Assembly: GCA_028753945.1 (NCBI GenBank)
Contig: JAPNXP010000010.1
Location: forward strand, 2,421,042-2,485,041
Source: Hexactinellida sp. DTS-2022
Lineage: Eukaryota; Porifera; Hexactinellida
Direction of reading: 5' to 3'
Length of the DNA stretch: 64,000 nt
This document shows positions 1,911 to 62,248 of the stretch, one piece after another (positions within the stretch are counted from its first letter, which is position 1; every line of letters begins with the position of its first letter). The position numbers and the translations under genes were made by a program. The notes under the pieces were generated by a model. It was not told the DNA's origin and made no database searches. It saw nothing but the letters and a program-made list of their open reading frames with translations.

Positions 1911-4722
1911 GGAAAGCTGAATAACGCCGAATGGAATAAGGCCGAAATTATAAATCCGGAATAAGACCGAATAATATTCAAGAGTGGAATAAGGCCGAAT
2001 TGTAAATCCGGATTAAAGCCGAATTATATTCAAGACTGGAATAAGGCCGAATTATATTCAAGACTGGAATAAGGCCGAATTGTAAATCCGGATTAAGGCC
2101 GAATTATATTCAAGACTGGAATAAGGCCGAATTGTAAATCCGGATTAAGGCCGAATTATAAATCCGGAATAAGGCCGAATTATATTCAAGAGTGGAATAA
2201 GGCCGAATTATAAATCCGGAATTAGGCCTTTGTTTTGTTTTGTTACCATAATACCATTCATACATATTTGATGTCATTTAACTCAAATAATTGTATTCTA
2301 AGCTACAATGATTCCAAATGTTATTCTCTGATCCGGCTTCTTATCAGACTTGTTAATTCGATACAACTAGTACTTACCACTTACAAGTGTATATGTACAT
2401 AGTTTATAGTGCAAGCTTAATAGTATATATGATAGAATAAATCTTAAAGTCCTATCCCGATAATGGCTAATTACGAAATTATTGAAGGTTGTCGCAAAGA
2501 CTCGTTCATTTATGTCAATGGAGGATATACCTACAGAAAGGATAAAGATGTTAAAGGTATCCGATATTTAAGATGCACTGAATTCAAGGTGGGTTGTCCT
2601 GGACGAGCGAAAATATCTTCGGACATGATTTCAATCACAAATGAACACAAAAATCATGAATAATCCGAAACAAATGTCGAAATTAGAAAGTTATTAACTA
2701 AAGTTAAACGAAAAGCTGAAAATTCGCAAGGATCGCTTCGTGAACTTTTCGATGAAGAGGCCAATGAGTCTGAAGTAGGTGGAAATATTAGCTTTGCACG
2801 AGTGGAGAATACTATGTATAAAAGAAGAAGATTAAACAGACCACAAATTCCCTTGAATGCAGAAGACGCGATTTCTTTAATGCAAACTTGCAATGACGAA
2901 TTCAAAATATATCATTCTTTTTCAATTAATGGACCATTGCAAGGTGAGATGGCGATTGGATTTATGAGTCCTAAATGGATATGTGCTCTACATTCAGGCG
3001 GAGATGCAACACTATTGCAGGCTGATGCTACATTTTTTGTAGTCCCTAAGCAATTCAAACAATTGTTGAATATTTTCCTGGATTACAAGTCCCGTTCTTT
3101 ACCAGCAATTCACATTCTGATGACAAAAAAGACAGCCACCCTATATGATCGAGTTGTAGAGAAAATTAAAGAGATGCTACCATTTACTGCAACTAGGATA
3201 ATGACAGACTATGAAAGAGCGCTATTCAATTCTTTATCTTCAGGCTTTCCCAATGCAGCAGTTAGTGGTTGTAAGTTTCATCACGACCAAGCACTTTACA
3301 AAACTGGAATATTAAAAAATGGATTGGCGACTCTCTATACTTCACATCAGGAATTCAGAAAGTGGGCTGAACTGTTAATGTGTTTGCCTCTTCTTCCATA
3401 TGATAAAATAATGGAGATGTTTAACTACCTCAAACACAAGATACCTGATTTACCAACATCAGAGAATGAAAAAGTAAAGAAATTACTCAGATACTATGAA
3501 CGATTCTGGTTGGAACAAATAGGCCCTTCAAGACTCTCTGTATTCCAGAATGACAAACGGACAAATAATTACCTCGAAAGTTTTCACGCTAAATTGAAAA
3601 GAAAATTTTCCTCACATAATCCTAATTATTGGAGCTTTATAACAAAAATGAATCAAGTGATTAAAACAACAGAGAAAGATATAGAGAGAATTGATAACAA
3701 CATCCCTATTCGCCGTAATGCCACACCTGATGCACTCCATAAAAATCGAGTTATCCAAGACCTCCAAAGAAAATTAATACACGATGAGATCACTTTAATC
3801 GATTACTTAGAAACCATATGTTATCAATACAAGACAGATTTTATGAAATTAGGAAACATAGTCCCATCTACCATTGAGCAAGATGAAATAGATGTAATTT
3901 CAGAAAGTGAAGATTTTGAGATAGCTTTCAACGTAGGAGAACAGTCGAATGAAAGATTATGTCGAATATGTCTTCTCAATGAAGCAGACACTCTGATTAT
4001 GCCATGTCGGCATGCACAAACTTGTAAAAGGTGTACTGAAATCATTATTATTTCAGAAGAGCTGAACAAGTGTCCCGTCTGTAGAGGACCAATTCAACAA
4101 TTCCTTCAAATATTCCTTTGAATTGATGATATTTGATTGACCTAAACTACTTTTAGGTTTCTGTTCTATGATTTTCTTTTTCCATTTCTAACCATCATCA
4201 TTTTCCTTCCTATTTTCTTCCAGGTCTTCCCCTTTTTACTTATCATTTTCCTTTCTTTCAGTTTAATACTTTTTATTAAATACTCATTATTAGACTGAAT
4301 AATTAGTATTGGGATAAATGAAATTAATGGAATTGGGAACCCATGGAACTATTTTTAATTGAAATTATATATATACTACACATTCTTCCAGTCTTGAATA
4401 TACTTCGGCCCGTGACCTACGTTCGGCCTTATTCTGGATTTATAATTCGGCCTTATTCCAGTCTTGAATATAATTCGGCCTTATTCCGGATTTATAATTC
4501 GACCTTATTCCATCCTTGAATATACTTCGGCCTTATTCCGGATTTATAATTCGGCCTTATTCCAGTAATGAATATAATTCGGCCTTATTCCGGATTTATA
4601 ATTCGGCCTTATTCCAGTCTTGAATATAATTCGGCCTTATTCCGAATTTATAATTCGACCTTATTCCAGTCTCATATTCGGCCTTATTCCGGATTTACAA
4701 TTCGGCCTTATTCAGTCAACTC
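1911..4722 (+). mobile_element. MULE (Mutator-like) DNA transposon with array-type inverted ends
   Basis: The element is flanked by an imperfect 9-bp target duplication, CTCTCATAG (1902-1910) and CTCTCATAC (4723-4731), the usual length for Mutator-like elements. Each end is a long inverted array of short units: 1911-2225 on the left repeats GGAATAAGGCCGAATT- and AAATCCGG-type blocks, and 4386-4722 on the right carries their reverse complements. The outermost ends are similar (GCTGAATAACGCCGAAT against ACTGAATAAGGCCGAAT). One transposase gene (2463-4121) lies between them. The element sits in the MLX-like intron in the opposite orientation to that gene. Confidence 0.85.
2463..4121 (+). pseudogene. 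MULE transposase with FLYWCH finger and C-terminal IAP-like RING finger; one in-frame stop
   Basis: The transposase would cut and paste the surrounding element. A single reading frame of 552 codons contains one internal TAA (2661-2663). Order of parts: an N-terminal FLYWCH-type zinc finger (residues about 20-66, with C..C and H.H ligands and GYTYRKDK at its start); a linker; a MULE DDE core with D188 (QADATF), D249 (MTDYERA) and E372 (NNYLESFHAK), plus the CKFHHDQA motif; and a C3HC4 RING at about residues 500-540 (CRIC, PCRHAQTCKRC, CPVC). The protein ends in FLQIFL, like the RING tails of inhibitor-of-apoptosis proteins. Without the stop the gene looks intact, so the decay is recent. If translation restarts at 2802, the product keeps the catalytic core and RING but loses FLYWCH. 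The RING suggests a ubiquitin-ligase activity; that is inference only. Confidence 0.85.
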
Positions 4723-47190: not shown

Positions 47191-50100
47191 CGTGGAGTAC
47201 GAAAGATAAGGAGGGAGTACTGTTATGATAAAATGGACCATGGACTGGTTAGAAGTCCCAAGTATTATTTTATTGAAAGTGAACACAATAAAGTCACACA
47301 ACTAAAGTAAATTCTAAGAAAGGTTAACACACCTAAAGGTATTACACACAGGGTCAATTAACACACACAAGGTTAAAACTGAGGTAAAACTAAGAACTTT
47401 TGAACTTTTTCAGCTTTCGATCTTGAATTGATTTCAAATGTTCTCGTTGTATCGAGTTTACATTTCGAACTTTATTTGCCAGGATACAATTGGCTGCCAC
47501 TGAACATATTTTATGAAGAACTGCCCAACCTTGTTGTTTGCAACAAATACAATAATTTCTCCAGTTTTCAGACTGAGTTTCTTCAACATAGAGTGTTGTA
47601 AGTTTGATTAAAATATTCCGTGATGGTCCTGATAAAAATCGTTGCATTAGAAGCTTCTCACTCTCAATTGCTACATATATTTTCCACACTACAATAATGA
47701 CATCAATGACAATGTGTGATGGCCATTTGAGAGCTCCTCGATCTATTAATTGGATAAGCTTGTTTTTGTCTTCTATGTCAACTACTTCCAAATCTCTATC
47801 TTGGGTTAACATTGATAAACAAGCTTCACACTTTGAACTGGAATTTCATATAAAGGAATGTACTGCATAACCACCAACGAAGGCGATAGATTGTAGAAGT
47901 GAAGTACTCAAAGGTATGTTATGAATTGTGGTTAGGACAGACAGAAATAATTCTACATTTAAAGAATTGTCCAGTTGTTCGCTAGGTTGTGTAGAGTAGG
48001 ATAGGAAGAATTCTTTTAAGCTGATATACTCAGTAGCCTGTTGTTTCGAGAATAATTTAAGGATGCTGGAAAGTTTGATTCGCCTTTCACTCTGTAAGAT
48101 TTGTGTATATGATATATGATATTGTGCACCAGACATCATGCGATACAATCCGAAATGATGCTCGATTGGATCATTTTGCAATCTTGATGTGAGCACATAA
48201 TCAAAACCACAATTCTCCGTGAGGTGTTGAACGATTTCTATCAAGGCACGACAGGAGTGAGAAATACTTGTAAAAGTTTGTGGACTTAACTTTCCATGTT
48301 TGCCTTGTCTACATTGCCAACGGTGAAGCCAGTTAACAATGTGTTTGAGAAATGCAAATCGTTCATCATTATGCTGAAGAGGTTTGGAAAATTCATCATT
48401 CAGTCTGATGTGTTTATGTGTGGTGTTAACATTAAATATTTTCCAAAGTTTGATTATTATGTCTAAAAATTCCGGTGTCTTGGATTTTGAGTTAGCGTGT
48501 GTTGCATTGTAAATCGATAGAGCTGCATAAGTTGATTGGTCAAATATTTTTAAGGCTAAATTTACGTTTTGTCTCTCTAACATGGTAGGCCAGCAAGCTT
48601 TGGAAGATAATCGATGTGCTTGTTTAAGTAAGGAAGACTGTTCACTCTTGTACAAAAGCCTGATGTCCTGAAAACGAGCGATGTGGATCTTGTTTACATC
48701 ATCATAATTAGGAAAAATCAATGGGTTTGGATAAGTAAATGTGTGATCATAATCCTTTAAGTTGAGCCAGTTGTTTCGAATTGATTTGAGAATATGTACA
48801 AAATCAAAAAGGAGAAAGAGTTTACGACTTTGGTTAACAGGATGAGGAACGGTTGGAGTCAGAGTCTTCCCATCTGAAGAGAATAATTTGAACATATTAA
48901 CGTTCAATGGATAATTGTCTGTGCAGATGGCTTGTACTTTCAGATCGCAATTCTCTATATTAAAGATTACAGACTTTACCACTGTAAACAAATCACCAGC
49001 CGAATTTGAAGAGCAGGGTATTAAACGAATTACTTGAGAACACTTTCTGTATAAACTTGAAGCCATTATAGCGAATACAGTCTTGATAGGCTTGTCAGAT
49101 TCTAAAGAATATCCAAGTATTCTCCCTCCTGTATAAGCGACGTTAGAGTTGACATGTATTTCATCCATATGCAATATTAAATTTCGTTCTTTTGAACAAA
49201 AATCTGCTGTCAATTGCTTCAAGAGGGTTGTAAAGTCGCTTTCTAATCCGATTTTCGAGTAAAGTTGCTGTAGCGTTTTAACATGAGGTAAGCATAGACA
49301 GTCTAGGGACTGGAGATATCTGTAACAAGAAGGTGATGTAAGATGTGCTTTGAGAGCCATAGCCTGTGTAATTACGTTATATTTTCTTCTATTTTTATGC
49401 ACAAGAACGTTAGCTAGTTGACATTGGATGAAGTGGAGACGCGATAGATATGGAGATAAATCTGAAACATCATCTGTTAAAGGATCTGTTAGCAGTGAAT
49501 TAAGTTTTGATATTGAAAGATCGAGTTGGTGTAAAGCTTCTTTAACGTGATGCTCAAATGTAACGAGCTTGTTTGGAGATGATTCATGGGAACTGTAATT
49601 CTCTATTTCTTCGAAAAGAAGTTCAATCTCGCGAATATCAGTTAACATATGAATTGAGAGAGGAATAACAACATTATCCCGAAATCCCTGGACACTCATA
49701 TCTTCGCTTACCAATAAACGCATCTCAATAGATATTGTATGAACTTGGAGCTTAGGCATAAGGATGTGTAGTTCAGATCCAGAACGAAATGCCATCCATT
49801 TATTAGATAAGGATATGGAGGATATGTGTGTGAGTAAGTTGGAGAAATTGTGCACACCATATTTTTCTGTATCATGCGCTTGCTGTTCAATGCTTAATTT
49901 GAGAGCCTGTGCGAACAGTTCTTCGTCCTTCGATTCGCGGACAAATCGAGTTGGTCTTGGTAATGGTTCCGACGAAAGATATGTAGGGCAGCCGGGTAGG
50001 ATCGATGGTACAGCATTTTGACAGAGTTTTGGTCTGGCGCGTATTCTTTCAGTAAAATTACCGTCAGCTTGCAAAATTCTGTCAACTGTAATAATATCCT

Positions 50101-50696
50101 TGGGATGAAAGTGATGCATGCAGACATAAATGTTAGATAATTCAGCAATGTTGTCACGATGGAGTGCATTCAACCACTGAGTACGTAACTCTTGAGGGGC
50201 TGTAGGAAGCTTGAAAACTGGTGTATATGGCTCACCTCTGTAATTGCTTTTACACCCAGGAGCAGAGCAGTGGTTAGGCATGGCGAGTGTTCCAATTGGT
50301 ACTAAATAGTAGGCTATGATTAAAAATTAATAAAATAATAAGTCATGGAGACTGGAGACGGCAGAATACAATCGAAGGAATCAAATATTGAAACTAATAT
50401 AATTAAAGGGATATGTCAGAGGGCAAATTATACGAACGTTAACTACCTTAGTTCCCAAAAATATCAAAAATATCAAAAATTTGTTATTCCAGCTAATTCT
50501 TAATAAGAAAAATTTATGACAAAATATTATGGTTATATAATATAGTTATAGGTATGTTTTCTAAATTAACCATAATATAAATCTTTGAAACTGATATAAA
50601 CCATTGACACTAATTAAGAAGTACGATGGGACTTCTAACCCATCCGTGGTGGCATATTTTTATTCAGTACTCCCTCCTTATCTTTCGTACTCCACG
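47191..50696 (-). mobile_element. P-element-like (THAP) DNA transposon, nearly intact
   Basis: Terminal inverted repeats of at least 31 bp are identical at both ends (47192-47222 and the reverse complement of 50665-50695; core GTGGAGTACGAAAGATAAGG). They are flanked by TATTAAC (47184-47190, 50697-50703), a 7-bp duplication (8 if the next C is counted). A second, subterminal inverted pair GGTTAGAAGTCCCA lies at about 47248-47262 and 50627-50641. This is the plan of the Drosophila P element: 31-bp ends plus short internal inverted repeats. Identical ends imply recent insertion. Confidence 0.9.
47390..50281 (-). pseudogene. THAP-domain P-element-type transposase, 963 codons with a single in-frame stop
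   Basis: One continuous minus-strand frame runs from ATG (50279-50281) to the stop at 47390-47392 and is broken only by a TGA at 47846-47848. The N-terminus is a C2CH THAP DNA-binding domain: C5, C10, C54, H57, with TPVFKLP and W36. The RNase-H-like core includes LHMDEIHVNSN and the DFVHILKSIRNNWLN block, and the late core contains NDPIEHHFGLYRMMSG, matching the D..E..FG..R motif of P transposases and THAP9. The part after the TGA (CEACLSMLTQD, then DRGALKWPS) is the conserved P/THAP9 C-terminus, so the TGA is a mutation and not the natural end. The length is close to the roughly 900 residues of THAP9. A truncated 811-residue product is possible. Confidence 0.9.
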
Positions 50697-52604: not shown

Positions 52605-54502
52605 ATTAGAATTGACTTAATTTTACTTGAATTGTATTAATGTTGCATTTAATTAATAGGATGACTAGTCTAGTACCAAAGAAGAGAAAATTTCTAAACC
52701 TGAAGAAGAAAGTTGAATTGATTCACTTCACTGAAAAGAATCCAGGCATCAGTATCAGAAGCATAGAGAAAATTTTCACGTGTTGTAGGACTCAAATTGC
52801 AAGCATCCTCAAGAACAAGGAATCAATTCTTACCATGTATGAGTCTAACGCATCTGTGGATAGACTACATGTAAATGTGATTGGTCGTAAATCACAATTC
52901 AGTGAAATAAACAAAAGTACTTTATGAATGGTATATCTTAGCATGCTCGAAGAATATATTTCCAGGAGGACCTCAGCTGATGGAAAAGGCTAAAGAAATT
53001 GCCGAGTGCATTAAGATTTCAAATTTTAAATGTTCTCGGGGCTGGTTACAGAAGTGGAAATTGAGATATAATGTGAAACAGTTGACTATTTGTGGAGAGT
53101 CAGGTGATGTGCAGGGACCAACCCTAAGTTCATGGAAAGAGCGGCTCCCCGAGATTCTACAGGGCTACACAAAGGAAGATATATGGAATATGGATGAGAC
53201 GGGTGTTTTTTGGAAGGCTCTACCCCATCGCGGATTTGGGGGAAAGGGAAAGGAATGTAAAGGAGGAAAGAAAGTCAAACAACGTATAACTGTTGCGTTC
53301 TTTGTTTCCGCAGCTGGTACGAAAGAACAGCCTATTTTAATATGGAAATCTGAAAATCCAAGATGTCTTAAAGGAATAAATAAATACGAATTGCCCGTAA
53401 ATTACTTCAGCCAAAAAAAAGCATGGATGACTGGGGAAATCATGGAGACAGTCCTAAAAAAATTGAATCGCCGATTGATAGGTAATAACCGTTTCATTAT
53501 ACTATTGATGGATAATGCAGGCTGTCATCCCGATAAATTGGCAACAAAGTTTAGCAATATCAGAATTACTTTTTTGCCTGCTAACACCACATCAAAACTT
53601 CAGCCTCTTGATTTGGGCATTATTCAAAATTTCAAAATGTACTACCGTCGATTTTTATTGAGATATGTTCTCTCAAAGATTGACTCATGTGATACTGCTT
53701 CTGATGTTGTAAAGTCGGTAAATATACTTTCGGCAATTAGATGGGTGAGCGAGGCTTGGTCTTTAGTTCATTCGGGAACAATTTCTAAATGTTTCCGAAA
53801 GCTGGAATCTTAAGTGATGAGATGGATGTTGTTTCTGTTGGATATGATGATGATAGTGAAGATCCATTTCTTGAATGTGATGTCAGAGGAGAGATTCAAA
53901 CTCTTATTGAGAGGTCCATGGCTGTTGTTGATCGTTTTACTTTGGAGGAGTATCTACAAGGAGATGATAACCTCCTTGTGTTCATAGACCAAGACAATGA
54001 AAATTGGGAAGTCAACTTTATGGAAGAACTTGGGCTAGATCAGCAAGATGAAGATAATGATTCTGATGATTCGGATCGAGTAACTGGTACAGAATGAGTA
54101 GTTGATATTGATGTTGAACAACCTCGATCCAAGGAAACTAATTTCAAGGAGGCTCTACTGGCACTTGAAGATGTGTATACATTTCTGCAGGCCCAGAAAG
54201 GGAATATTCAAGCCATTAACAGTGTTGGCTCTGCCACACAGTGGGTTATTTTGGAAGTTCACGGGAAGTAGGCATTTCCTTGCTATATAGAGCAATGAAA
54301 TGTATTATAAGTGTATAGGTTATCATACTCAAAAAATCGAATTACACCCTCAGATTTTTTATATGGCTTCAATTTTTTGGGTTATGACGTCATCATGACA
54401 TATCATTTTCAAATAATTTTATTTTCTGATTTTAAGTTATGCAGTATCATGCACAGTACACAGTATAAACAATTACAGTTTGAGCTATGTAGAAATAGAC
54501 AA

Positions 54503-56641
54503 CTATATCACAAGTTTATTGAACAGTAAAGAATCGACCAGTTTGTCTTGATTCAAAAGCGGTACTTTGCAAACTTTACATTTTTCACTCCTAATATGGC
54601 CTATTTCACCACAATGCTTGCAAATTAATGTTCTACGATAGCTAGAGAGGAGAGGATCACTCTGACTGAGAAGACGAGTGAACACATCTTTTAAGTTGAG
54701 GGTAAAAGAATTTTTTCTGGATAGATGTTCTCGATAGCGCCGGATTAACTTATTGCATGATTCTATTGCTTCCTCTGAATATTCTTTAAGTCCATATCCA
54801 TCGTTGCAATCTCGAATTAGTTCGGTACAATGAGCTAGGAGTTTATGTAAAGATGGTGTTATATTGGCCCATGGAAAGGTAGTTAGTATTAGTTCGTATG
54901 TATTTTTACTTAATTCCTCCAAGTTTTCTGAATTTACCTCCTGGCTACTATTGAATATTCGTAAAATTGCTGAGAGATTAGTCTGGAGTATGGAGATATC
55001 ATCCCTAAATTTTGAGGGTATTAGCGACGAAACGTAGTAAATAAACTCATTCTTATTGCCAAAGCATTGTCGAGCAATATTTCCTGTTGAAGTAGTACCA
55101 CCATCACTTGTAGGTTGGTCAATTCGAAGTCCAGTTTTCTCAAATAAGAAATCACTGCAAAATTTCTTTGAAGCTTCGACCGCTTTCGAAGTCGGTGACC
55201 AGACAAATTTTCCAGAATGTAAATGGTACACCAAGAGCATGAACCATCTGAATACACATGTATAACTGTGTAGAGGTGAAGCCGATAAAATATTTCTGTC
55301 AGAAACTGGTTCATGAGTAATGCCTAACCTTTGACTGGAGGGGAGGGATAGATATTCGTCTTTAACTACGAAAGTAAACAAATCTATTGCGTCCAAAATA
55401 TGTCGATTAATGGGGAAACCAGCCCTAACCATTTCCAGGTCTTTAAGTTCTTTAAGATTTGCAGTACACAATTGACAGTGTGCGCCTCCAGCTCCGCTAA
55501 GAATCCCAGACATTTTGCCATCAAGCATACTACGAATGATCTTGGCTTGCACCATTCCTTGAGGTAACTGTAAGCCATCTTGTTCAATAGAGTTCACTTC
55601 AGGATTAATGATATTTTCCATTATAAACTTAACGTTATCAAGACACTCCTTTTGAGCAAGTAGTACAACAGGCCTTACTCCAAACGAAGAATTAGGCGAG
55701 TTATTTTTCCAAACTTGGATATTATCAGAGTCATGAATTGACAGTAGTTTGAAGGCGAATAAAATGAAGTTTTTTGTGCTTGGAGTTGGATGTAGCTCAT
55801 ACTGATTATAAATTTGGTGACAACCAGACCCATCAAGACCATCTGATAGCTTTACTGTCAAAGGAAAATGAGATTCAAAGAGTGGAGGATTAGTTTCGAA
55901 TACCCTTAGCAGGGTCTGTCGTAAAATACTTCTGTAAGAAATCGCGATTCCGATGGTTACATTCATTGGATTTGTGACAAATGTTAACTCGTTAACTAAA
56001 TTGACACCATTACGATATTGAGCTAGTCTAGAATAAGAGGGGAAGGTGATGTTCTCAGATTTGCAAAGACGTCGAAAGTTCGTATATTTTAGCTTTCCTA
56101 TTTCAAGGATGTCAAGCAAGAAAGTGGACTTGTCAATAGGTAGGGTTTTGGACAGATTAGCATATGTTCCGGTCGCTATTATTTCCTTGCAAACATTAGC
56201 GGTGTTAACATCTCGGGATCCATTAGATAATAACATTAGTGCATAGGCAGCTATTATGTTTGAGTTAACTTCCTCCTTAAGCGAAAATGCGTGCATTATT
56301 TTCAAAACCGGACCAAGTCTTGTCCGCAAGGCTTTCAGGGTAAGTAGAGATAGGGGCTTTCTTATTTCCATTGCTAGATCAGATTCTATGATAAGCTTTT
56401 CCTCGAGAAGCTGTTGCTTCGGGGAATGTGTTGATGGAAACGTGTAAAATATTTCAGCCTCCCATTCCTCCATCTTCTTGGCCTTTCGCGCAGAATCCCT
56501 CGTAGGTTTAAGATTTCTGAATTTGTACCGTAAACCATCGAATTCGCTATCATCTAATTCAAATTCTTCAACATATTTCAAAGCAGCAGCACGTATTGAT
56601 TCCTGAGTTGAAAGGTACTTCCAAGCTTCAAAATTATTCAT
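54503..56641 (-). CDS. Transib transposase (RAG1-core homologue), intact, 712 residues
   Basis: A DDE recombinase expected to nick and hairpin DNA next to CACAGTG ends and paste the element with 5-bp duplications. The frame is unbroken. Family features: D270 (LDGSGCHQIYNQ), D374 (MLDGKMSG) and a Glu at 627 (SEEAIESCNKLIRRYRE, aligning with RAG1 NESGNKLFRRFRK); the zinc pair C389/C392 (HCQLC) and H599/H604 (HKLLAH), with the same CxxC and HxxxxH spacing as the RAG1 core; TSDGGTTSTGNIARQ, matching the RAG1 NGNFARK region; and LLSQSDPLLSS, typical of Transib. The C-terminal tail has a CX2CX3GHX5CX2C cluster (C674, C677, H682, C688, C691), reminiscent of the tail zinc motif of RAG1-like transposases. 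Translation probably starts at 56639-56641, the first ATG. Whether it is active is unknown. Confidence 0.93.
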   Translation of the reverse strand: MNNFEAWKYLSTQESIRAAALKYVEEFELDDSEFDGLRYKFRNLKPTRDSARKAKKMEEWEAEIFYTFPSTHSPKQQLLEEKLIIESDLAMEIRKPLSLLTLKALRTRLGPVLKIMHAFSLKEEVNSNIIAAYALMLLSNGSRDVNTANVCKEIIATGTYANLSKTLPIDKSTFLLDILEIGKLKYTNFRRLCKSENITFPSYSRLAQYRNGVNLVNELTFVTNPMNVTIGIAISYRSILRQTLLRVFETNPPLFESHFPLTVKLSDGLDGSGCHQIYNQYELHPTPSTKNFILFAFKLLSIHDSDNIQVWKNNSPNSSFGVRPVVLLAQKECLDNVKFIMENIINPEVNSIEQDGLQLPQGMVQAKIIRSMLDGKMSGILSGAGGAHCQLCTANLKELKDLEMVRAGFPINRHILDAIDLFTFVVKDEYLSLPSSQRLGITHEPVSDRNILSASPLHSYTCVFRWFMLLVYHLHSGKFVWSPTSKAVEASKKFCSDFLFEKTGLRIDQPTSDGGTTSTGNIARQCFGNKNEFIYYVSSLIPSKFRDDISILQTNLSAILRIFNSSQEVNSENLEELSKNTYELILTTFPWANITPSLHKLLAHCTELIRDCNDGYGLKEYSEEAIESCNKLIRRYREHLSRKNSFTLNLKDVFTRLLSQSDPLLSSYRRTLICKHCGEIGHIRSEKCKVCKVPLLNQDKLVDSLLFNKLVI

Positions 56642-57971
56642 TTAAGAAGAATAAATGCTACAATGTTATTCAACAAGTAAATTACACAAATTTGTATAAA
56701 TAATGAAAGTTATCATCCAAATTATATAAATATTTTCACTTGCGCGGGGTTGTGCGGGGCTGGATAGTGGTTAAATCACAAGATAATTATGTAAGGTATA
56801 AATAAAAATCGGTCTGGATAGACACCACCTCGCACCACCATAAGTTTATTCACCATCAACTGTCCGAACATATGCATCCGGACAATTACAGCGAAAACTA
56901 TTTTTATAGCAGATTAGACCAATAATTATTCCTATCTATATTTAGTATACAACTGTTTTAGGATGATCCAAGGTATAATTACATGTACTAAAAGTCTTAA
57001 GGTTAAATTACCCCACGTGAATGAAAGTTCTTGTATTAATCTGTAAATATGAGAAATATATACCTATACGATACAAAGCAATAAACCAAAAAGAAAATGT
57101 CCCTATCTATTATACTTTAAATTTTTTGTCAGTTTCAAAATTTGGCTAATACAAATCTCCCATAGGGCGATTTCCAAAAGTGGTGGTCGATATTATACGG
57201 TAATTTGGCAATGCGGCCATCAATGTTTGTCATCAGAATCAATATTTAAAGATCATAAGCGTACGGAGTTGGTAGACGGTTTACATTTTTGAATTATGAC
57301 TTGGAATTTCTTTTTTCAAACATTTAATCAAATTTCGCATTAAAAGATGACCTTTTTATTCATTTTTTAGTTTCAAAAGGTCGCAATATTTTTTATTTAG
57401 ATCTTATCAAAATTCTAAACCGCCCACCAACCGCTCATAACGATGATCTACCTGATAGATCACACAGTATAGGTTTTTAGCAAATAATGATCTTGAAATC
57501 CACACACATATTAGGTGGAGTATGAAGAAATCCCCCTATGGGACTTTTGTATTAGCATTAAACTGCACGCCCAATAAAATCGAGGTTATAGAAGATATTT
57601 TGATTTCGTTTTCAGTTTGAATCTAGCTATAATGTCTTCTATCATATATCTGAAATTCAAACTCCCACCTTCAAAACTAAATTCATGTGTTTTTTTGGGT
57701 GAATCTGCCGTAATTTATCCTTAACTCATTCTGATAGAAGCCTACTGAGAACAAGAGCATGATGTGAAGCGATATTATGAAACTGCAAAATTTCAATAAT
57801 ACAATACTTAAAAATCCATGATTTGATGCTCTCTATTTCTCATTATATTTGGAATTATTACCTGAAATTAAAGCTACCTAGGTTTTAGACTATGCTGAAT
57901 ACAATAGCAAGTTTTAGAGGTATTTGAGAACATGAAAATTTGACCATACTTCCTGTCAATAACCCACTGTG
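56642..57971. other. Upstream non-coding part of the Transib element
   Basis: This stretch lies between the transposase start and the right CACAGTG end. It should contain the promoter, but no motif could be assigned. No kelch-type or other second frame was found on either strand. Confidence 0.5.
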
Positions 57972-58340
57972 TGCCATAGACTCAGTTGCGAATCTCAAGA
58001 TACAATACTCTGTGCAAACTAACTTGCATAAATATTTTTAGTCATCAAGTAGTGTTCCCTTATAGTCCAATTCCCTAATTGAAAAATCTCGAATTGTCTA
58101 GTTATCTAATTGTCCAGTTCTCTAATCGTCATGTTCACCATTTGTCCGCTTGGGGCCCCTGCGGACAATTATTGACTATTAATTATGTACAGTGTGATTA
58201 GGGATGTATTAGCACTATTTGATAGTGTATTATAGTACTATTAGCTAGTATAAGGCTCAACCTCCGAATAGCGGACAACCTCTAAATAACGGACAACGAC
58301 TCCGGTCCCAAAGTGTCCGTTGAACAGAGGCTCTACTGTA

Positions 58341-59800: not shown

Positions 59801-62248
59801 TCAATATATTTTTATAGAATAATACAAATTCCAAAATAGAACAGATCCCAACTGTTTCCAAACCACAAGAAAAACACGACTTTGAAATACATGGCGATAT
59901 GGGTTTGAGGAAGAGGAAGTACTTGGACAACTAGATTTGTTCAAAATTTGGTTAAATGAAATCTGGTAGTGATACCCTGACATTTGTCTATATAAACCGA
60001 AGTGGTGCTCCAGCGCATCATTTTGAATTCTTGCAGTTAGAAGGTACTGGTATCCGCAGTTTTCGGTAAGTTGTTTGACCAGCAGTGGTAACGCCTCGCA
60101 TGTGTGTCTGAAACTGGGAAAGGTTTGTGGTGTTAACTTTCCATATAAAGATGGCAGATTAATCCAAATATCTAACCAAGAGACGTTGTTTAAAAATTGT
60201 AAACGAAAATATCCTGGGTAAAGTGGAGCTGAATATTCATCCTTAAAACGTATATCTTTCCCGACCCAGTTGACATTGAATAGTTTCCACACCTGATTGA
60301 TTAATTCAAGGAATTCTACTGTTTGATTCGTGTGTATGAGGTCTTTTTCCATTTTCCACGATAATAAGCCGGCATATGTTGTCTCATGGAAAATTTCCAA
60401 AGCAAAACTAACATTTTGTCGTTCTAACCTTGAGGGCAAACACGCTTTCGCTGTTAATCTTGGTGCTCGCTTCAAGACATTACATTTATCAGAATTGAAT
60501 TAATTACGGATATCCTGAAAGGGTGCATAACATAGTTCAGGATAAAGAGATTAAAGGTAAATGAGTGGTCGAAATGTTGGTTCGAGAAATGGAGACGTAA
60601 AACTTTGTTTACGTTACTGATATTTTGTTGTACACATAATTTGCATTCAGCAAATTTCGGAAAAATAAATGTATTGTCTAAATTTCTTAGATTTAAACAA
60701 TTATTCCTAATGGACTTAATGATATGAACAAAATCAAAAAACAAAATTAAACTTATTTGTGGATTGCATGGGTGCTGTACCTTTGGTTCCAGTCTCGAAT
60801 TAAAAGAAAATAATTTGTATAAACGAACATTGAGTGGATAAATATCAGTACACACAGCTTCAACAAACAGACCGCAAGCTTCGATGTCACAAATAGTTGA
60901 TTTAACAATTGGATATAATGATTCAGCAGATCAAGAACCCAAAGGTATTAATCGCACAATGGTGGAAAACCTGGTCGATAAACTAGAAACCATCATAGAA
61001 AAAACTGTAGTATGTGGATCATCCGGATTATTAATCGACCCAATTACCCTTCCTCCCTTATAGGATGCATCACTACGAATGTGAACTTCATCCATTTGAA
61101 GAATCACATGGCGCTCTAAATCATTAAACGTGGTAGCAACTTCTTCAAGAATTTTAGTATACTCACTCTCTAGGCCAATACTATTTTTAATCTTCAACAA
61201 ATTACGTTCGTGTGGAAGTATGATACAGTTAGAGCTTTGGATAAGCAGATAACAAGCTGGTGAAATTCCGTGAATTTTTAGACAATAGACCTGAGTGAGA
61301 ATATTATAACGTCGAGCATTTTTATCAACAATTTTGCATTTCAGCTGATCGAGCAAAAAATTAAGACGATTAGCATATAATCATTCTCGGCTTCGAAATC
61401 AAATGTGGAATGGGTAGGATCTAGTGTATCAATAGCACTAGAAAGAGTATGAATGACATTCTAGAAAGGGGTTGCTGTGGAAATTGAGCAATCTTTTTGA
61501 CTCATTTCAAATATTTCAACTTCATGAATAATATTTTCTAACAATCTGATATCGTTAAACGAATTACAAGATAGTTTGATTCTATTATTTTCTTTATAAA
61601 AAGCCTTACAATCTAATTTTTCATCAACAATTATTGAACGTTCGACCGTAAAATTTCATTATGATAGTGAATCTTAAGAGATAGAATGATTGTAGAATTG
61701 GGTCGATGAAGAAGCCAACCGTTAGGTAGTTCAATTAGATGTAACTTAGAAATAATGCAATTAAGATTAGAAAGAATAAACTTAGATTCAGTTTCTTTGA
61801 AATCTGCGCGGCTCTTCTGGTAGGCTTCCTGTACCCTCTTCTCCACCTTAACATCTAAAGATAGTCTTTGACATCTATCAGCAGCATCTGTCAGATAGCT
61901 AGGACAGTTTGGAAAGATGCTAGGGACTGCACACTTCTTAAGAGCCACTTTCTTCCTGATCGTCAATCATCTCCATTCCGTTGAAGTATTGAATGGTCCT
62001 CTCTATGTCTTCTTCATGAAAATGGTGTATGCAGACCTTCAAAACAAAAGACATAGAATACAATAAAAAAGTAAACATATTATAACATAGTACCTTCAAT
62101 CGTTTATTCATCTCGTAGTCTTCTCTCTGCCTAGTATTGCTCGGAACCACTTCTCACAAGTTTCAACATCAGTGGGGAAAGAGAAAACAGGTATATATTC
62201 ATCTTTGTCAGAATAGTTTTACTTAGAACCAGGTACGAGGCAAGTCAT
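59801..62248 (-). pseudogene. Second THAP/P-element-type transposase, heavily decayed
   Basis: Collinear with the gene at 47390-50281 but in pieces. A THAP start at 62246-62248 (MTCLVPGSK, then a stop; YIPVFSFP; W) has the second Cys changed to Ser. A 57-bp GT-AG intron (62037-62093) joins RLK to VCIHHFHEEDI. Next come KKCAVPSIFPNCPSYLTD (61631-61966), ILQMDEVHIRSDASYKGG (60931-61356), FFDFVHIIKSIRNNCLN (60472-60855) and a last piece 59801-60475 with LTPQTFPSFRHTCEALPL and NDALEHHFGLYRQMSG. At least three frame breaks separate the pieces, and the C-terminal DRG region is absent. No inverted ends were found. Confidence 0.82.

Follow-up and report, generated by a model that had tools for sequence, protein, structure and literature searches.

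A Transib transposon with asymmetric bipartite ends in the genome of a glass sponge, interrupted by a TTAA-flanked insertion

Is the RAG1-related element found in a hexactinellid sponge a genuine Transib, and do its ends inform the debated origin of the 12/23 rule? RAG1, which cuts antibody genes, is thought to descend from the Transib family. The element lies in a stretch of 64,000 nucleotides from Hexactinellida sp. DTS-2022 (assembly GCA_028753945.1, contig JAPNXP010000010.1, positions 2,421,042–2,485,041 of the forward strand), referred to in the following as the window, where it occupies positions 54237–57971. An initial annotation, made from the letters alone, had described it as a complete and undamaged Transib with identical 14-bp inverted ends. 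We find that the element is a Transib and that it is very probably a genuine cut-and-paste transposon of the RAG-proximal (Subgroup I) kind, in which one transposase pairs a short-spacer with a long-spacer end.

The transposase gene is a single open reading frame (ORF) of 712 residues on the minus strand (54503–56641), unbroken as originally described. The catalytic residues D270, D374 and E627 and the zinc residues C389, C392, H599 and H604 were located where the initial annotation had put them. Among the aligned sequences, D270, D374, C389 and C392 were identical in 21 of 21, and H599, H604 and E627 in all 20 with a residue at the position in question. A profile search aligned the DDE and zinc residues with those of HzTransib (Helicoverpa zea; PDB 6pqn and 6pqx), BbRAG1L and RAG1, with RAG1 matches in both PDB and Pfam, and the predicted structure matched the same three proteins. 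Profile scores were higher for HzTransib than for RAG1L. In two profile searches, all named relatives of the Transib came from Oopsacas minuta, the second search returning only further relatives of the same kind; no named non-sponge Transib was among the relatives returned. A scan of prokaryote contigs yielded 33 pattern matches with no confirmed relative and thus did not retrieve the bacterial Transibs that Tao et al. describe. The element holds two ORFs of at least 80 residues from an ATG, the transposase and a 97-residue ORF nested in it, on the same strand in a different frame; no RAG2-like ORF was present within the element, whose own ORFs were those examined. No N-terminal zinc-finger or RING family matched at E ≤ 1, the sole zinc-finger matches being sub-threshold ones at residues 673–695. 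PF26100, which is precomputed on many relatives, was not reproduced in scans of the window protein and seven relatives, five of them bearing PF26100.

The sequence CACAGTGGGTTATT stands at 54237–54250 and its reverse complement at 57958–57971, so that a CACAGTG heptamer forms both the gene-3′ end (54237–54243, plus strand) and the gene-5′ end (57965–57971, minus strand). The inverted termini are perfectly identical over these 14 bp only. They are flanked by a perfect target-site duplication, TGCCA, at 54232–54236 and 57972–57976; termini and duplication thus agree with the earlier description. This was the sole pair in the window combining perfect 14-nt inverted repeats 1–6 kb apart with a perfect 5-bp flanking repeat, and no such pair occurred in any of 20 first-order Markov sequences. 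Counts of plain CACAGTG across the genome, with the trailing N ignored, were uninformative (10,484 versus 7,649 for the reversed control).

The left flank gave 19 listed matches, six of which, excluding the window itself, spanned the insertion point. The five of these that were fetched are paralogous empty sites in a Tigger/pogo gene, and each has one uninterrupted TGCCA, matching the joined flanks at 96.6–99.1% identity over 206–220 bases. The 5-bp flanks are therefore not coincidental. Of the two outcomes that the initial annotation had named as refuting, mismatched empty sites and a failed profile alignment of the DDE and zinc residues, neither occurred. The Tigger/pogo frame is continuous across the joined flanks if one TGCCA is retained, and insertion of the Transib into this gene is proven. 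The interrupted gene is on the plus strand. Its left part (52980–54236; DDE_1 and HTH_Tnp_Tc5) is counted from the first long ORF rather than from the end of the Tigger element; the frame resumes in the right part (57977–58338), whose right limit was inferred by eye from the CAGTAGAG... end followed by TA. A second Transib copy, L011 (C16:1906370–1912127), occupies the identical Tigger position and has in common with the window a variant near the junction (ATTAACAG, where the five empty sites have ATAAACAG). It has no 720-bp insert of the kind described below, carries a short deletion at the left junction and has TGAGA, not TGCCA, as its right flank; we infer that it was probably duplicated along with its Tigger host.

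Near-identical copies, for which the initial annotation had suggested a search, were found: the subfamily comprises five copies, including that in the window, among the matches listed, at 98–100% identity. The frame is open in the window copy and in C1:2361101–2364110, with 17 differences between them over 2136 coding bases, and broken in the other three, whose longest frames are 395, 306 and 449 residues. A search of the genome with the transposase protein gave at least 71 matches at E ≤ 0.001, some copies being split over several matches. From these matches, 30 loci were fetched, and 11 had frames of at least 690 residues. In a sister family, the copies on contigs C4 and C5 differ at only 3 of 2130 coding bases, which indicates that this family moved recently.

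The initial annotation had treated the ends as simple 14-bp repeats, and it had overlooked a second block that is placed asymmetrically. At the gene-3′ end, the block GGGAAGTAGG occupies positions 27–36 from the end, after a 19-bp spacer (54263–54272, plus strand); at the gene-5′ end, AGGAAGTATG occupies positions 18–27, after a 10-bp spacer (57945–57954, minus strand). The same arrangement was seen when gene-oriented copies were compared, with the block beginning ≈18 bp from the gene-5′ terminus and ≈27 bp from the gene-3′ terminus. Candidate end pairs (at least 10 of 14 matching bases) were identified at 21 of 30 loci and at none of the other nine. We set aside two apparently spurious pairs, those of L057 and L059, and kept 19; 16 of the 19 had a perfect 5-bp duplication, the imperfect ones being L058 (4/5), L050 (1/5) and L041 (0/5). 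After removal of six near-duplicates and of L047, whose interior is inverted, 12 autonomous copies could be compared, and the offset was 9 or 10 bp in ten of them. The sequence of the block varies by family (for example, GTCGATTAG, TTCGAATAGG and TGGAAATAG) and is common to both ends of one element; the proteins of families with differing blocks are 39–69% identical. The two ends thus covary: the within-element block score, summed over 10 non-redundant end pairs, was reached by none of 20,000 partner swaps, where the offset had been picked after inspecting the ends and the swaps were scored at the same offset. Three of the ten pairs in this set (L049, L061 and L088) score at most 6/9.

Patterns written for the two ends matched the genome at 76 (short) and 81 (long) sites, with no matches for either reversed control. 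These ends formed 59 convergent pairs 0.8–3.7 kb apart, every one consisting of one short and one long end, and left 39 ends unpaired. Most pairs were ≈1.05 kb in length and represent a non-autonomous derivative. When the ends of ten pairs were fetched, seven ≈1.05-kb pairs and a longer copy on C4 had perfect 5-bp duplications; the remaining two, both GGGCTATT pairs, did not.

Several side observations concern the ends and targets of these copies. In L047 (C14:2912081–2916604), which has a perfect duplication, TAATG, the interior and the gene are inverted relative to the short and long ends. Long ends of autonomous copies have a partly conserved stretch after the second block, at positions 37–56, of about TATTT-N5-GCAGATAGAC. 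In the 12 copies, and with no genome background, a run at positions 28–40 of the short end is rich in A/T (A+T 0.72), compared with 0.62 and 0.58 in two stretches of the long end. In raw counts with no background correction, the 24 perfect target duplications show a bias towards a palindromic [CT]ANTG: position 1 is C or T in 21, position 2 is A in 13, position 4 is T in 13 and position 5 is G in 10. Insect Transibs, unlike the copies seen here, prefer GC-rich targets.

The second block might have no role at all and be inherited baggage in an ordinary Transib, for whose transposase the terminal 14 bp are sufficient. This explanation would fit the restriction of perfect inverted identity to 14 bp, the ends of HzTransib, described as symmetric in the available text of PMC8289069, and the deviation of L061 and L049 from the 9–10 bp offset. 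However, functionless drift is not expected to preserve the same block at both ends, at a 9–10 bp offset, in ten of 12 copies while the sequence itself changes from family to family, and we regard this explanation as unlikely.

If the block is read by the transposase, a domain corresponding to the nonamer-binding domain (NBD) of RAG1 might be expected to do so. A profile of residues 77–164, built from ten relatives, was compared with PDB, and all 16 matches at E ≤ 10 were to RAG1. The best, to a 96-residue RAG1 fragment (3gna, presumably the isolated NBD), had E = 0.001 and covered residues 93–139, so that the NBD-like stretch lies at about 56225–56365 on the minus strand. From the zinc CxxC to SPLH, the window protein has 62 residues, close to the 57 of BbRAG1L, whereas HzTransib has 27 between CxxC and STLH (all counted on alignments). 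This length indicates that the window protein has the alpha11-12 region, which HzTransib lacks, and the predicted structure places putative helices at 395–430 (model numbering). The tail carries a zinc-knuckle motif, Cx2Cx3GHx5C; the CTT1 motif is given as Cx2Cx3GHx4C in the part of PMC7204232 consulted. A looser C-C-H-C pattern was found in 13 of 21 aligned proteins, with the exact x4 spacing in P0020 and P0025, and in eight of the 11 long ORFs of the genome.

These traits have been described together before. According to Tao et al. 2022 (PMC9435367), Transib Subgroup I comprises the Transibs closest to RAG1L, every member has asymmetric ends, and its traits include an NBD equivalent, the alpha11-12 region and a CTT1-type tail, traits that they place in Subgroup I as well as in RAG1L. 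Compared with this description, the element likewise has a lone RAG1-core transposase, bipartite ends that are asymmetric, the alpha11-12 region and an NBD-like stretch, together with a tail that resembles the CTT1 type, and differs from published members in its glass-sponge host and in the x5 tail spacing of the window copy. Because the asymmetric ends, NBD-like stretch, alpha11-12 region and CTT-type tail occur together, membership of Subgroup I appears likely from sequence. Other systems resemble the element in part. In AanRAGL of Aureococcus anophagefferens (PMC9435367), the distances of the second element from the two ends are likewise 18 and 27 bp, as computed from the published lengths (a 13-bp first element and 4/13-bp spacers), but AanRAGL carries RAG2L and has the end sequence CACACCCAAACCT. 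Asymmetric Transib ends are also found in Drosophila Transib5 and Anopheles Transib2/N1-N3, where the asymmetry is described as of the 12/23 type in the accessible text of PMC8355894; according to the same text, these differ in having near-12/23 spacers, RSS-like nonamers (RSS, recombination signal sequence) and insect hosts. Vertebrate RAG1 and its 12/23 RSSs have in common with the element the CACAGTG heptamer, bipartite ends with two spacer lengths, the core fold and the NBD-like stretch. The sponge element differs from them in that its spacers are 10/19, its block is GGGAAGTAGG-like rather than an A-rich ACAAAAACC, and it transposes and contains no RAG2.

Could the element instead be a RAGL transposon from which the RAG2-like gene has been lost, and not a Transib, in which there was none to lose? 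The alpha11-12-length insert, CTT-type knuckle and NBD-like stretch, all held in common with RAG1L or RAG1, would favour such an origin, as would the 18/27 geometry computed for the Aureococcus RAGL, and the part of PMC7204232 that was available considers the alternative order of events. Against it, Tao et al. (PMC9435367) give such traits to Transib Subgroup I besides RAG1L. The higher profile scores to HzTransib than to RAG1L, the lack of a second gene within the element, and the finding that no homologue returned exceeds 725 residues (among candidates of 0.55–1.75 times the query length) all speak for a Transib, and we consider a RAGL origin very unlikely. That the gene is a domesticated RAG1-like host gene, as its open frame and its PDB and Pfam matches to RAG1 might suggest, is barely conceivable in view of the ends, the duplication, the empty sites, five subfamily copies at 98–100% identity, three of them with broken frames, and dozens of related matches.

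In a cut-and-paste Transib with asymmetric ends, a RAG1-core-like transposase dimer would hold both CACAGTG heptamers in its DDE core, while a pair of N-terminal NBD-like domains would bind the second block of each end despite their unequal distances, much as RAG handles spacers of 12 and 23. Synapsis would pair one short-spacer with one long-spacer end. By analogy with RAG and HzTransib (family knowledge; PMC8289069, available text), cleavage would proceed by a nick at the heptamer followed by a hairpin on the flank; once excised, the element would be joined to its target with a 5-bp stagger. At this locus, the order of events is insertion into the Tigger transposase gene, followed later by that of the 720-bp TTAA-targeting element.

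A number of points weigh against this interpretation. The NBD match is marginal (E = 0.001), and all 16 matches are to one protein family. The tail motif of the window protein is one residue longer than the published form and is missing from eight of the 21 aligned proteins; L065 and L066, long ORFs without it, still show a 9-bp offset, which indicates that tail and asymmetry are separable. The placement in Subgroup I is based on traits, not on a tree. The offset is 14 in L049, L061 has no matching second block, and both a perfect duplication and a clear block are lacking in the GGGCTATT pairs L088 and L090. The ends from which the search patterns were derived were known beforehand, and few families contribute the 59 pairs, which are hence non-independent events. 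The dN/dS of the two open copies is 0.68 on 17 differences, too shallow a divergence, and no purifying selection is shown. Finally, the 720-bp insert may separate the gene from its promoter, impairing expression of this copy.

The genome thus holds many divergent Transibs whose ends mostly share a block at a 9–10 bp offset, and the element examined has no RAG2-like gene. A bolder proposal is that the glass-sponge Transibs constitute a RAG2-free system already obeying a 12/23-like (10/19) rule, in which the NBD-like domain reads the block and the two have co-diversified by family; we find this plausible, but lean slightly against it. If it is true, spacer asymmetry and its enforcement are older than the acquisition of RAG2. 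Reliance on spacer asymmetry has been suggested, as a hypothesis, to come with vertebrate RAG2 (PMC8355894, in the text available), and asymmetric ends have been suggested to be ancestral (PMC9435367). Asymmetric Transib ends as such had already been described in insects (PMC8355894, same portion) and in Subgroup I (PMC9435367). No report of Transibs in sponges (Porifera) was located by title or abstract, and the word "Transib" was absent, by term search, from the main texts of the glass-sponge genome papers compared. As far as the literature was searched, in part by title, abstract or term, two things appear to be new: a probable glass-sponge Transib radiation whose second blocks have diversified around a largely preserved offset, and the occurrence there of the 18/27 geometry of the Aureococcus RAGL.

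Although the Transib ends and frame are both whole, the description of this copy as complete and undamaged does not hold, since a 720-bp element flanked by TTAA is nested within it at 57001–57720, with ends GGTTAAATTAC/GGATAAATTAC and duplications at 56997–57000 and 57721–57724. For the window, the practical point is that the Transib is real but interrupted; the activity that the initial annotation thought possible for this copy is conjectural. Upstream of the gene, 359 bp separate the insert from the ATG, and its distance to the gene-5′ end is 251 bp. The four other subfamily copies skip the corresponding query positions (2765–3484), which match a very abundant repeat. With the whole element as query, the best 40 of 788 first-look candidates were scored. 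Of 24 fetched repeat copies, 16 had both ends, at a distance of 719–720 bp, and a TTAA at either flank, two (L015 and L019) had both ends and one flank that was not TTAA, and in six (L016, L017, L018, L022, L035 and L037) a single end was recognized by the script. Duplication of TTAA is typical of piggyBac-type movers and suggests that this high-copy, non-autonomous element was mobilized by one. Fifteen of these 24 best-scoring fetched copies (L015–L038) are on contig C11, which makes up 15.6 of 112.4 Mb. Within the insert, positions 57145–57556 contain a 30-nt inverted repeat (90%) with arms 352 nt apart, for which reason the insert may itself contain an older nested unit.

Other transposons in the window include a MULE transposase that carries a RING finger (2814–4121), a THAP/P-type transposase with an 811-residue frame (47846–50281), the Tigger frame interrupted by the Transib (52980–54097), and a 183-residue ORF (59801–60352) that matched no Pfam family and resembles a P-type fragment by eye. 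Among the named relatives of the P-type transposase, two were from O. minuta and the lower two from beetles.
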